This document shows positions 3 to 5,423 of a stretch of 22,066 nt of DNA, piece by piece. Origin of the DNA: a virus; the IMG/VR virus record IMGVR_UViG_3300017717_000100, positions 1 through 22,066 of that record; one strand, written 5' to 3'. The notes beneath the pieces were generated by a model. It made no database searches and had not been told where the DNA came from. It saw only the letters and a list, made by a program, of their open reading frames with translations. The first letter of the stretch is position 1; each line of letters opens with the position of its first letter. The translations under genes were made by a program, and so were the position numbers.

Positions 3-1997
3 TACTATGAAGGTAATCCAGACGCTATAAGATTTGATGCCTCAAGCAACTTAATGAGTGGAACTCCAGATTTTGAGGTAACACCAAATACTGCAAAAGT
101 AAATGGTAATCTTGTATGGCATGTGGGCAACGACGGTCCGAACTCAGGATTAAATGCTGACTTACTTGATGGTGTCAATGGAGCTTCGTACTTGAGAAGT
201 GATGCCAATGATGTTTATAATGGCACCTTAACCATAAACGGAATGGATTTCAAAGTCTCAAACGCCGTTAGAAACTTAAAAATACAAGCAAGCACAGGTG
301 GCTCAGATGTTGGTATCAGTGGCTTTAGGGCAGATGGAACTCATGGTTTTCAAGTATATGGTGATGGCAGTAACTATGGTTTCTTAGATGGAAACTGGGC
401 TAATTGGGATCTTAAAAAGGCTAAAAATGGTCAATTACAAGTTGATGAAGGGTCAGGGTTGGTTAAAGTTTGGACTGCTGGCAACGACGGTCCGAACTCA
501 GGATTAAATGCTGACTTACTTGATAATTTACATGGCTCAAGTTATATGAGACTAGATGCGGCGCAAGATGTAACAAACTATACTCATGTACACAGTTTTT
601 ATACTAACGGAAATATAGCTACATCAAGTGGAAGTCAGTCAAGTTTACAATGTTATAATAACACACAAGGTAACGATGCATTTATGACTTTTCATATTGG
701 AAGTGATTTTGCTTGTTATTTTGGACTTGATGGAGGTACGAATAAATTATCAGTTGGTGGTTGGTCAATGGGAGCAAACTCTTACGAGATTTACCACTCA
801 GGAAATAAACCTTCATTAGCAACTCTTGGATTTACAGGAGCTTCAAATGCCAACTATATTACAAATAATAATCAGTTAACAAATGGTGCTGGTTATATTA
901 CTGATGGTAATACAAACTGGAATAATACATACGGATTTATTACAACATCAGCTATTGGTACTTACATAGGTAAGAATAGACCAAATAACTATGTTGCATC
1001 TAGTACATCTACTTCAAATAGAGGAAACTTTGGAGAAGGTATATGGGCGTATAGTGGATATTCTACTGGTACAAATAGACCTTTTACATATGATGCTACT
1101 TTACAAGTTATGCCTGATAGTTCTTTAGGATTTGAACTTTCTATTGATTGGGTATCACAAGGTACGACTCCATTAAAAATTAGAAGTTTAAGAGATTGCT
1201 GTCAAGGTTGGTCAAGTTATTCGACCGTTTGGACTTCGAGCACAGATGGCCCAAATTCAGGTTTAGATGCTGATTTACTTGATGGATTAAATGCAAAAGG
1301 TGTAGGAAGTGCTACAGGAGCAAGTCAAGTTCTTACTTCAAATACAAATAGCTATTTTGTACATCAAAATTGGATAGACATAGGTGCAAGTGGTATCTAT
1401 TCAACAAGTACAAACGGTGCTCACTTTAAACCTAATAATGTAACAAGTTATGGTACGTGGGCAACAAGTGGTGGAAAAGGTGGTTATGATGGTATTGTAT
1501 TTGATGGTGGTGGTGACGTTGCACTTATGTTTGACACCGGGGGTAATGGAGGGCATTATCGTCAAAGTGGCGTTGGCTGGATGACATATTTTCATCAGGG
1601 CAATGATTGCTTAGGAGTCTGTGATTCTACTACATCGTCAAGCTACAGTTTATATGTAACAGGAGGAATCTATGCAACAGGAGATGTTGTAGCATACTCA
1701 GACAGAAGAGCAAAAGAAAATATAATTACTATAGACTCCGCTCTAGAAAAAGTAAATCAACTAAGAGGAGTATACTATAATAAGATAGATAATGAAGACA
1801 AAGAACGAGAAATAGGTTTCATTGCGCAAGAAGTAAATGAAGTTGCACCTGAATTAGTAACATATGCAGAAGACATTGATCAGTATGGAGTCAAGTATGG
1901 AAATACTACTGCATTACTAGTAGAAGCAGTAAAAGAATTAACACAACAAGTCAAAGACTTAAAACAAGAAATAGAGGAGATAAAAAATGTCAAGTAA
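3..1997 (+). CDS. Tail fibre with C-terminal S74 self-cleaving chaperone (5' partial)
   Basis: Long host-recognition tail fibre or spike. The frame stays open to the window edge, so the internal ATG at 54 is not the true start; residues here are numbered from that ATG. The body is rich in Gly, Ser, Asn and Thr, as in trimeric beta-structured fibres. It carries three copies of a motif of the form GNDGPNSGLNADLLD, at about residues 25-39, 143-157 and 396-410. The last ~99 residues form an intramolecular chaperone domain (Peptidase_S74): SDRRAKENI at 549, then GFIAQEV, then a coiled-coil-like Lys/Glu tail. In this family the chaperone trimer cleaves itself off just before the Ser of the S-D-R-x-x-K motif, here Ser549, after folding the fibre. 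The end overlaps the next small gene by 11 bases. The family is clear; the receptor specificity is not visible. Confidence 0.9.
   Translation, partial: YYEGNPDAIRFDASSNLMSGTPDFEVTPNTAKVNGNLVWHVGNDGPNSGLNADLLDGVNGASYLRSDANDVYNGTLTINGMDFKVSNAVRNLKIQASTGGSDVGISGFRADGTHGFQVYGDGSNYGFLDGNWANWDLKKAKNGQLQVDEGSGLVKVWTAGNDGPNSGLNADLLDNLHGSSYMRLDAAQDVTNYTHVHSFYTNGNIATSSGSQSSLQCYNNTQGNDAFMTFHIGSDFACYFGLDGGTNKLSVGGWSMGANSYEIYHSGNKPSLATLGFTGASNANYITNNNQLTNGAGYITDGNTNWNNTYGFITTSAIGTYIGKNRPNNYVASSTSTSNRGNFGEGIWAYSGYSTGTNRPFTYDATLQVMPDSSLGFELSIDWVSQGTTPLKIRSLRDCCQGWSSYSTVWTSSTDGPNSGLDADLLDGLNAKGVGSATGASQVLTSNTNSYFVHQNWIDIGASGIYSTSTNGAHFKPNNVTSYGTWATSGGKGGYDGIVFDGGGDVALMFDTGGNGGHYRQSGVGWMTYFHQGNDCLGVCDSTTSSSYSLYVTGGIYATGDVVAYSDRRAKENIITIDSALEKVNQLRGVYYNKIDNEDKEREIGFIAQEVNEVAPELVTYAEDIDQYGVKYGNTTALLVEAVKELTQQVKDLKQEIEEIKNVK
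126..170 (+). repeat. 45-bp direct repeat in the tail fibre gene, copy 1
   Basis: A 45-base stretch beginning ggcaacgacggtccg is repeated without mismatch at 480-524, in the same reading frame. It encodes G-N-D-G-P-N-S-G-L-N-A-D-L-L-D. Nucleotide identity, including wobble positions, suggests a recent duplication or gene conversion, since the protein motif alone would tolerate synonymous change. Confidence 0.93.
480..524 (+). repeat. 45-bp direct repeat in the tail fibre gene, copy 2
   Basis: Perfect copy of 126-170, offset by 354 bases (118 codons). A third copy at about 1240-1283 encodes nearly the same peptide (TDGPNSGLDADLLDG) but differs at many synonymous sites, so it is older. Similar GLDADLLDG motifs are frequent in marine phage fibres, where they mark joints between exchangeable segments. 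Confidence 0.93.
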
Positions 1998-2465: not shown

Positions 2466-3776
2466 ATGGCAGTACCAGCAGCTACAACAGCAATATCTTT
2501 AGCAAAGATAAGAGATGAGATAGAAAATAATAACTATAATCATAGTCTTTATGGCTATACATCTTCGTCTACAAGTTTAAAAGATATAAGTGATGGTAGT
2601 ATAGACACTATTAATACGGCAAATGCTAGTGCTGATAGACCAGATGGCTCGGCTCCTCATGCAATGAGTGAGTTTTTTAGTTACGATCACGATAAAGTTT
2701 CTACTAATCCTGTATTATCATATGTTGGTGGAAAAAGATCATTCTACATCGTTGAAGCAGTTGAAGGAAGTGACTCAGAGGCAAGAATTTATATATGGTG
2801 TTATAGAACAGGTACAACTATTAAAGTGTATGCAAGAATGCAAGGTAATGGAGATAGTGGAGGTGACAGTGCAGATGCTGGTTATTTCACCGGCTTAAAT
2901 TCAGGAACTGAAACTACATTGACGGGTGAAACTGATTTTCATAATGTCAATTTTCAATTTGCTCAAATTACAAATGTAGATTCAGGTTATAAAGTTGGAT
3001 TTAGTGACGCGGCCGTTTCTGGACAAGGAAACCAACATTCTGGAACTGGCTCAGTACATACAATTAATATGGATGCAGGTACAAACCCAACTACCGCAGT
3101 GCGAACAACATTCTGGACTGCTTCCGCAGGAAATACTACTCAAAATACTCCTCCCACTACAATTAATGCAGTAAGATATACAAGTGAGGCACTTACAGAT
3201 GATAGTGATTATGGATATGATAGAGTAACATTACATTTTAAACATGCTACACTCGCAGATTTTGATGTTGTAGTAGATGTAAGCACAGAGGCTGAAGGAG
3301 TACTTGTCGATGAAGGTGAAGAGGATTGTCCACAATGCTGTATCCATGAAAGTATGCTAATTGCTACTGAGGAAGATATGAAATCAATACACGATATTAA
3401 AATAGGGGATAAAGTAATATCCTATAATTTTGAAACAGAATCAAATGAATTAGTTGAAGTTGAAGATTTAATTACAATTGAAAGAGATGTAGACTATAAA
3501 GTAAATAATTTAATACTTACCGAAGATCACCCTGTTTATTTAAATACTGGTAAAAAGGCTTCTATAAATCCTGAAGCTACATTATTAAACTATAAACAAG
3601 AAGTTGATCAAATTCAAATAGGTGATATTATGGTCAAGCTTGATGGAACTGAAGAAGTAATTCAATCAATTGAAAAATATGAAGGAACTCATTTAAACTA
3701 TGCTATTAAAACAAAACATAATAATTTTTATGCAGACGGAATATTAGTTGATTCTGTAATACTGGAGAAAAAATGA
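2466..3776 (+). CDS. Tail-associated protein with C-terminal Hint (intein/hedgehog-like) domain
   Basis: 436 residues, with AGGAG eight bases before the start. Residues 1-285 are a Gly/Ser/Thr/Asp-rich, beta-looking structural segment that I cannot assign to a family. Residues 288-436 resemble a Hint domain. The entry is D-C-P-Q-C-C-I-H-E-S-M-L-I-A-T, with Cys291 fitting position 1 of intein block A (Ser at 6, Leu at 8). Block B is L-T-E-D-H-P-V-Y, with Thr352 and His355. There is a paired IKIGDKV / IQIGDIM motif and a C-terminal NNFYADGILV. Inteins end in His-Asn followed by Cys, Ser or Thr; here the matching place reads Asp-Ser and only a short tail follows. Full splicing is therefore unlikely, and N-terminal cleavage or cross-linking at Cys291/292 is the expected chemistry. 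Its TGA overlaps the next ATG (ATGA). Confidence 0.82.
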   Translation: MAVPAATTAISLAKIRDEIENNNYNHSLYGYTSSSTSLKDISDGSIDTINTANASADRPDGSAPHAMSEFFSYDHDKVSTNPVLSYVGGKRSFYIVEAVEGSDSEARIYIWCYRTGTTIKVYARMQGNGDSGGDSADAGYFTGLNSGTETTLTGETDFHNVNFQFAQITNVDSGYKVGFSDAAVSGQGNQHSGTGSVHTINMDAGTNPTTAVRTTFWTASAGNTTQNTPPTTINAVRYTSEALTDDSDYGYDRVTLHFKHATLADFDVVVDVSTEAEGVLVDEGEEDCPQCCIHESMLIATEEDMKSIHDIKIGDKVISYNFETESNELVEVEDLITIERDVDYKVNNLILTEDHPVYLNTGKKASINPEATLLNYKQEVDQIQIGDIMVKLDGTEEVIQSIEKYEGTHLNYAIKTKHNNFYADGILVDSVILEKK

Positions 3777-4594
3777 GTAAATTAATTATTACAGGTAGAG
3801 GAACAGATTTAGGAGTTAGACATAATCATAACTTTATTGTGTATAATGATTCTTATGAATTAGAATATACATCTGATTATGAATCAGAATTAAAAGATAT
3901 ATCTATTAGAGATCAAAGAGATTGGAGTGGTAAACCTAGACCTGCGTTTAGACCTTTTGGAATTACTTTTGATAATGATAAAATATATATTGCAAATCAT
4001 ACTAAAATAGGTATATTTAATAAAACTACTTATGCGTATGAAGGATTATTAGGAACTCCTGGATTTTTTAATACACATCAAATCCTTAAAAAGAATAATA
4101 TAATGTACACTGCAAACACAAGACACGACACAATAGGTGTACATAATTTAGATACTGATGAAAGTACATATATTAATTTGCCTGAAAGATCACATGTTAA
4201 CTCCTTATTTTGGTCTGAAGATAATAAACTATGTTATGTTTTGCATAATAGAGGAACAAAATTATCACAGTTTTTTAAAGATGAAGTTAAGATAAAAGAA
4301 ATAGGTAAATGTTGTCATGATTTAATTTTAGAAGGAGACAATTTTTATACATTAGATACATATAATAAAAAACTTCGTATTAATGATAATGAGTATGAAG
4401 TACCTGATGGGGGTTTCATTAGAGGGTTAGCTAAGTTAGGAAACGAATTAGTAATAGGACAAAGCTTAACAAGCGATATACCAAAGACACCTGCAGACTG
4501 CTTTTTACATATTTTTAACCTAACATCAAACACTTTTACAGGAAAAATATCAATACCTGAAGTGAGGGAGATAACAGATATTAAATGGATTTAG
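3773..4594 (+). CDS. Six-bladed beta-propeller protein
   Basis: 273 residues with six spaced repeats of an inner-strand pattern, each roughly 'hydrophobic, G/N-D/N-N, K/N, IY/MY/CYV'. They lie at about 61-76 (PFGITFDNDKIYIANH), 102-116 (HQILKKNNIMYTANT), 141-159, 181-196 (CHDLILEGDNFYTLDT) and 216-231 (IRGLAKLGNELVIGQS), with a closing strand EITDIKWI at 266-273. The ~40-residue period is typical of NHL- or SMP-30-like propellers. Several repeats begin or end with His (76, 102, 141, 158, 182). No signal peptide is present. The gene starts in an ATGA overlap with the Hint gene and overlaps the oxygenase gene by 10 bases, so the three are probably translated together. A role in tail assembly, glycan binding or enzymatic modification is possible; the sequence does not decide. 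Confidence 0.72.
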   Translation: MSKLIITGRGTDLGVRHNHNFIVYNDSYELEYTSDYESELKDISIRDQRDWSGKPRPAFRPFGITFDNDKIYIANHTKIGIFNKTTYAYEGLLGTPGFFNTHQILKKNNIMYTANTRHDTIGVHNLDTDESTYINLPERSHVNSLFWSEDNKLCYVLHNRGTKLSQFFKDEVKIKEIGKCCHDLILEGDNFYTLDTYNKKLRINDNEYEVPDGGFIRGLAKLGNELVIGQSLTSDIPKTPADCFLHIFNLTSNTFTGKISIPEVREITDIKWI

Positions 4595-5280
4595 AAAAAT
4601 TATTTTTTTGCCCTGTCTACTATAAAAATTTCGGAAATAAAGTAAGAGATTTAAATAAAAGACTGATAGCTGACATTGATAAAGAAATGTCAGAATGTGA
4701 AACAGATCATAATAGAAGTTTTGTTAAAAATGGCCATACATGGCAATCAAAACATAAAATGGAAAACAGGCATGATAGCTTTCGTGAGTTTGCGGATTTA
4801 ATAGAAAGTGTTTATGATTGTAGTTGTCGTTCAGTATGGGCGAATGTCATTTTTGGAGCTGGAGGATTTTCAAGACCGCACAATCATGGAGCTCGAGTAA
4901 ATATACCTAAAACAGTAAAAGGCAGAGACGGTAATAGATTACATATGCCTACTCAAAAACAATTAAGTAGGAGAGAAGATTTAGGAAGATATTCACAAAC
5001 AAGTACTGGAGTATACTATCCTAAAGGTTTAACAGAAATTGATAATTTAGATGATTTAGATGAATCTAAGTTGTTTATGCCTAGATGGAGCGGCAACGAT
5101 GAAGGAGTGTTAGTACTATTTGATCCCACATCTTATTTAAGAGGTACTAATGATGTGGTTACAGTAAAACCAAGAGAGTCATTATTATTACTGTTTCCGG
5201 CATGGTTAACACACATGGTTGCACCGATGGCTACAAATAAAAAAAGATACTCAATGTCTTTTACACTGAAACCATTATGA
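4585..5280 (+). CDS. 2OG-Fe(II) oxygenase-like protein
   Basis: 231 residues. Resembles the small phage and bacterial 2-oxoglutarate/Fe(II) dioxygenases that carry an H-N-H motif on one strand and a distal His followed by Arg. Visible here: VWANVIFGAGGFSRPHNHG with His99 and His101, then LLLLFPAWLTHMV with His210, then R221 before YSMSFTL, where Arg would hold the 2-oxoglutarate carboxylate. In the usual family the histidine motif runs straight into an S-G-V-Y-Y strand. Here about 40 mostly charged residues (102-140) are inserted before TGVYY at 141-145, which is unusual. These enzymes hydroxylate protein or other substrates. Being coupled to tail genes, the target could be a tail protein, but that is inference. 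Confidence 0.75.
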   Translation: MDLEKLFFCPVYYKNFGNKVRDLNKRLIADIDKEMSECETDHNRSFVKNGHTWQSKHKMENRHDSFREFADLIESVYDCSCRSVWANVIFGAGGFSRPHNHGARVNIPKTVKGRDGNRLHMPTQKQLSRREDLGRYSQTSTGVYYPKGLTEIDNLDDLDESKLFMPRWSGNDEGVLVLFDPTSYLRGTNDVVTVKPRESLLLLFPAWLTHMVAPMATNKKRYSMSFTLKPL

Positions 5281-5423
5281 TGTTACCTGATCAATGGATT
5301 GAATATTTTTTACATAAGATTGGAATTAAAAAAGATTCATTATTAGAAGCTTTAATCATGGTATCATTATTTTTTTTAATAATAATATTAATGTTAAGTT
5401 TCTTTTTAGATACTTACAAATAA
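5277..5423 (+). CDS. 48-aa single-helix membrane peptide
   Basis: Starts at an ATG overlapping the oxygenase TGA (ATGA); a second ATG follows immediately, so the product is 47 or 48 residues. It has an amphipathic N-terminus (PDQWIEYFLHKIGIKKDS) and one strongly hydrophobic helix at about residues 24-44, rich in Ile, Leu, Phe and Met, then a short polar tail, DTYK. It is the last gene of the rightward unit and its TAA touches the terminator hairpin. Size and topology would allow a small holin- or spanin-like role, but with one helix and no recognisable family this is only a possibility. Confidence 0.65.
   Translation: MMLPDQWIEYFLHKIGIKKDSLLEALIMVSLFFLIIILMLSFFLDTYK

Follow-up and report, generated by a model that had tools for sequence, protein, structure and literature searches.

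Does a Hint domain that forms the very end of a viral protein, and has lost the terminal asparagine of inteins, still act on the polypeptide in front of it? The question is raised by a gene in a 22,066-nucleotide stretch of viral DNA (IMG/VR record IMGVR_UViG_3300017717_000100, hereafter the window), for which an original prediction from the sequence alone had proposed a tail protein ending in a Hint domain that lacks the C-terminal splice residues and acts only on its N-terminal partner, which may be released or attached to a nucleophile. The features concerned are as follows.

2466..3776, + strand: Hint-module gene, a 436-aa ORF consisting of a front part (1-287) and a C-terminal Hint module
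2466..3326, + strand: front part, residues 1-287, no known family
3327..3341, + strand: C288-P-Q-C291-C292 (CxxCC), from the alignment
3339..3755, + strand: Hint domain, residues 292-430, from the AlphaFold model and structure alignments
3339..3341, + strand: Cys292, predicted nucleophile (intein Cys1), from the structural register; invariant in 44/44
3519..3530, + strand: block B Thr352-Glu-Asp-His355, from the profile match; Thr-x-x-His in 44/44
3702..3704, + strand: Ala413 at the block F:4 position (Asp in many inteins)
3750..3755, + strand: Asp429-Ser430 replacing the penultimate His and terminal Asn, from the structural register and alignment
3756..3773, + strand: VILEKK tail, no C-extein

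The reading frame is genuine: an AGGAG ribosome site (2455-2459) precedes its ATG, and its end overlaps the following gene at ATGA. CCIHESMLI (291-299), LTEDH (351-355) and NNFYADGILVDS (419-430) all sit where the original prediction had placed them, and the last is followed by the six residues VILEKK and a stop codon, in agreement with the claimed absence of a C-extein.

Fold and residue register

Structure prediction, which had been proposed as a check, was run on residues 276-436 with 20 relatives and gave a Hint fold over the whole domain (mean pLDDT 88.7, pTM 0.82). The closest solved fold is BIL2 of Tetrahymena thermophila (Z 22.1, rmsd 1.7 over 143 residues, 21% identity), followed by inteins at Z about 14-19 and Hedgehog at Z 16.2. 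A chance match is excluded by these scores taken together, since Foldseek returned an E of 2.3e-11 and a profile of 20 sequences matched the NrdJ-1 intein at E 1.6e-7. The whole-domain fold, a Cys at domain position 1 and T352/H355, all features of the Hint superfamily, are present. Seven Hint-type or related Pfam models match the window domain, each below its curated cut-off, and the relatives L136 and L146 lie above the cut-offs of Hint and Intein_splicing.

The alignment ranges fix the residue register and thereby identify Cys292 as the candidate nucleophile and Asp-Ser as the replacement of His-Asn. In the Mtu RecA intein, the first residue is matched by model residue 17 (Cys292) and the last (440) by model residue 155 (Ser430); Cys292 also pairs with residue 258 (Cys258) of Hedgehog, and Ser430 with the final residue of other inteins, which leaves Asp429 on the penultimate His. 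The block A cysteine of the original prediction is thus present, but Cys1 is Cys292; Cys291 lies one residue off and was dropped as the nucleophile. A split intein was also rejected, the domain being complete from block A through block F/G.

This register bears directly on whether the protein could splice after all, with Asp429 as the terminal intein residue, Ser430 as the +1 nucleophile and a short C-terminal peptide added to the front part. Inteins with terminal Asp or Gln exist (PMC4031507) and a Ser does follow Asp429, but it is Ser430 that falls on the terminal Asn, and relatives carry His-Ser, Asn-Ser, Ser-Ser or Asp-Gly at the two positions; we regard such splicing as scarcely credible. 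A class 1 intein combines a terminal Asn, Gln or Asp with a +1 Cys, Ser or Thr and a C-extein completing the host protein, and the window domain has Ser430 at the terminal position and a six-residue tail before the stop.

As a separate observation, the Pfam AXH model (ataxin-1 module) matches Hint domains in the window (3327-3773), in L136 (500-607 aa) and in L146 (619-723 aa), above cut-off in the latter two (1e-12 and 4e-19), which suggests either that AXH and Hint may be related or that the AXH model is contaminated.

Relatives without the terminal asparagine

Relatives were sought in IMG/VR with several patterns, each built on a different part of the Hint module. At least 99 were confirmed by a profile-derived scan and 80 were retained. 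In a maximum-likelihood tree built without the columns of the C-terminal trait, and with relatives ending in HN, of which some have Hint domains in tandem, as outgroup, 44 distinct sequences lacking the terminal Asn form one clade with support of 100/99. Within it, at identities down to about 35%, Thr-x-x-His is kept in 44/44, the terminal Asn in 0/44, and Cys1 in 44/44, a count that is partly a selection effect because some patterns and the sequence extraction required Cys1. Block B was absent from the recovering patterns, and single-end scans control for the remaining effect: where long enough, ORFs recovered by the C-terminal motif alone start Cys-x-His, Hint ORFs recovered by the N-terminal motif alone end in LVDS or LVHS, and a block-B-only pattern gave 11 matches, all on contigs already in the Hint family. 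Domain ends are mostly Asp-Ser or His-Ser, and a change in the direction HN to HS to DS holds only under that outgroup rooting. On this sequence evidence the window Hint belongs to a clade of uncultured marine phages that share the one-sided residue pattern throughout, rather than being an isolated degenerate copy.

Purifying selection acts on the module, with pairwise dN/dS of about 0.05-0.2 for closer pairs, and a search of 8 member contigs found one copy per contig. These figures, the monophyly of the 44 and the persistence of the Hint while its neighbours are exchanged (see below) all speak against a functionless, decaying intein remnant, which we judge very improbable even though the terminal Asn has gone and the domain ends of L071 and L086 are altered further. 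A more serious contender, though still a doubtful one, is a catalytically silent Hint that persists because it helps the adhesin to fold or oligomerise, or caps it, and structural demands alone could indeed preserve the fold. The loss of the block F:4 Asp, which is Thr or Ala in 43/44, fits that explanation, as does the presence of another C-terminal structural module (S74) at the locus. S74 itself, however, is a self-cleaving module, and a structural role alone gives no reason for keeping just the N-side catalytic residues: Cys1, Thr and His are invariant while the C-side residues vary. A Hint type acting only on its N-terminal partner, as originally claimed, is the best-supported reading because the clade keeps the N-side residues and loses the C-side residue throughout. 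The original interpretation is supported in part: the type of domain is well supported, and release or attachment of the front part is a prediction.

More distant C-terminal Hint domains (L126, L129, L124, L127) end in LVY or LVYDEQK, a second route to the loss of His-Asn. Other phage proteins (L135, L137, L140, L146, L148) contain at least two tandem Hint domains, each ending in His-Asn with the next Cys1 immediately after, an arrangement in which serial self-processing is possible.

Locus, front part and module exchange

Two further features describe the surroundings of the gene.

3..1997, + strand: upstream tail-fibre gene ending in a Peptidase_S74 self-cleaving chaperone, a conserved neighbour
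2753..5395, + strand: cassette of Hint gene part, propeller-like gene and 2OG oxygenase gene, 87.7% DNA identity to L001

A Peptidase_S74-ending gene lies directly upstream of the Hint gene at all six loci checked (the window and five others). The "tail protein" label of the original prediction comes from this neighbourhood, residues 1-287 having no match among Pfam or PHROG families. The first 75 or so residues are similar to those of other locus-family proteins (ISL..I..E ... SLRGLS ... PxGxAPxxMSEFxGY), and the region thereafter is variable and probably beta-rich; in a full-length model the front part is poor (pLDDT about 35). Gene position and the shared N-terminal motif therefore suggest a tail protein or tail adhesin, presumably located on the virion.

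The Hint module is joined to different front parts across relatives. Between the window and L001 the synonymous divergence is 0.10 in the Hint domain and 0.52 in the front part, and the flanks of the 2753-5395 cassette do not match. L020, L047 and L066 share the replication module of the window and carry, at the same position, a Hint gene that belongs to another subtype; the Hint protein is therefore retained while its partners and cassettes are exchanged.

The gene overlapping the Hint gene (window 3773-5280) is weakly DUF4915-like and is followed by a 2OG-Fe(II) oxygenase gene, both of which travel with the Hint cassette. At other loci a phage lysozyme and a phage curli-type cluster lie downstream, the latter consisting of CsgF, CsgG, curlin repeats, FecR and a CHASE2 adenylate/guanylate cyclase (L017 3650-9441; also L019, L005, L022, L023, L026, L029, L040 and L050). 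At L002 4867-7331, L007 2-1848 and L028 7475-9432, both the Hint protein and the product of the gene that follows it are made of PYIANAQQPFTYQNR-like tandem repeats.

A proposed one-sided reaction and its known counterparts

The first step in Hint domains is an N-S acyl shift, made by Cys1 and helped by the block B Thr and His, and Hedgehog performs this step only (PMC7664689, PMC4031507); BILs have no +1 nucleophile and mostly cleave (PMC4031507). By analogy with these systems, and from the residues retained, we lean somewhat towards a one-sided Hint in which residues 1-291 are shed or transferred by an N-S acyl shift at Cys292, with no splicing. After folding, Cys292 would attack the Cys291-Cys292 peptide bond with the aid of Thr352 and His355, so that the Hint domain would carry residues 1-291 as a thioester. 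Splicing would be blocked by the loss of the terminal Asn and the missing C-extein, and the thioester would be resolved by a nucleophile, with water taken as the default because no acceptor is visible; the Hint module would then be shed and the front part would gain a free C-terminus. The main sequence evidence against this N-side reaction is the missing block F:4 Asp. Many inteins use this residue in the reaction at their N-terminal splice site (PMC4031507), and its replacement by Thr or Ala could slow or abolish the step.

In the window subclade the three cysteines of CxxCC (C288, C291 and C292, at positions -4, -1 and 1) are kept in all aligned sequences. C288 and C291 beside the predicted nucleophile may restrain the reaction until the redox state permits it. 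A redox gate is plausible because disulfides at the active-site Cys of inteins make their activity redox-sensitive (PMC4031507), and the motif as such would be compatible with a redox or metal gate. The clade differs at this junction, Cys-Cys in the window subclade and aromatic -1 residues elsewhere.

Neither kind of junction is, to our knowledge, known to favour cleavage. N-side-only Hint domains are best known from animal Hedgehog proteins. The Hog domain (1at0) shares with the window protein the order of N-terminal part, Hint and C-terminus, in which only an N-side reaction is possible; the window protein differs in coming from a prokaryotic virus, in having no known acceptor and in lacking the sterol-recognition region, its stop codon lying six residues past the Hint domain. 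BIL2 (BUBL1 locus; PDB 6y75, 6tmm) resembles the window Hint in its Cys1 and block B residues and in having no classical +1 nucleophile, but retains its terminal Asn and a C-terminal partner, and its host is a ciliate ubiquitin-like polyprotein rather than a phage protein.

An alternative is transfer instead of hydrolysis, whereby residues 1-291 would pass to an amine, hydroxyl or lipid and the adhesin would become covalently anchored on the virion, a partner protein or the host surface, as Hedgehog is to cholesterol and the partner of Tetrahymena BIL2 to lysine. The best structural match is the domain for which isopeptide transfer to lysine is published (PMC8616854), and Gly-rich linkers ahead of Cys1 in 34/44 clade members would suit a mobile activated tail. 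The published BIL2 transfer, however, involves a domain whose C-terminal half is intact, and with no identifiable acceptor in a protein whose Hint reaches the stop codon we consider transfer unlikely. The fuller proposal that this marine phage clade uses one-sided Hints, with CxxCC as a redox gate in one of its subclades, to link an adhesin covalently via a thioester to the virion or host surface is more speculative again, and we rate it a long shot.

Other Hint types differ from the window domain on the C-terminal side. The NrdJ-1 and gp41-1 inteins (8ubs, 6qaz; Z about 17-18), nearest by sequence profile, are true inteins inside replication genes with a C-extein and terminal Asn, whereas the window Hint is C-terminal, lacks the Asn and belongs to a tail-region gene. 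BIL types A and B (e.g., 2lwy) occur in variable surface-type proteins, have no +1 nucleophile and cleave rather than splice (PMC4031507, PMC7765530). Type A keeps the C-terminal His-Asn, unlike the Asp-Ser of the window domain; type B has no block G similarity, whereas block F/G is recognisable here, with the preceding strand conserved and the block G Asn absent. PT-HINT of polymorphic toxins (PF07591) is an autoproteolytic Hint in long surface proteins that releases the part C-terminal to it, whereas nothing follows the window Hint. Peptidase_S74 (PF13884) of the neighbouring gene is a C-terminal phage-fibre module, unrelated in fold and chemistry.

If the preferred reading of an N-side-only Hint is correct, the clade offers a natural test case of splicing domains turning into maturation or conjugation domains, one in which domains that have lost the Asn and kept Cys1/Thr/His sit next to S74 fibres on adhesin-like proteins that are exchanged. 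Compact tags for cleavage or ligation, one-sided by nature, may also come out of it, and a gene that recurs as "hypothetical" in uncultured marine phages would be accounted for.

Searches of the open-access literature gave no account of a phage adhesin with a Hint domain at its C-terminus, and many phage proteins bear the name Hint in BFVD. Among cultured phages, tblastn with the whole protein and with the Hint alone found no member of the family, a search with the front-part motif found no match, and a profile search of the whole HTVC008M and Melnitz-2 genomes found no Hint of this family; cultured HTVC008M and Melnitz carry the same curli-type cluster without the Hint. A scan of genome contigs found no relative. 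The weak tblastn matches were discarded, those in a Campylobacter phage being ribonucleotide reductase or unannotated genes and those in LR756508 true inteins. The latter (L016 3500-4600, LR756508.1) are two closely spaced inteins in a gene of an uncultured jumbo phage that looks like a portal protein gene.
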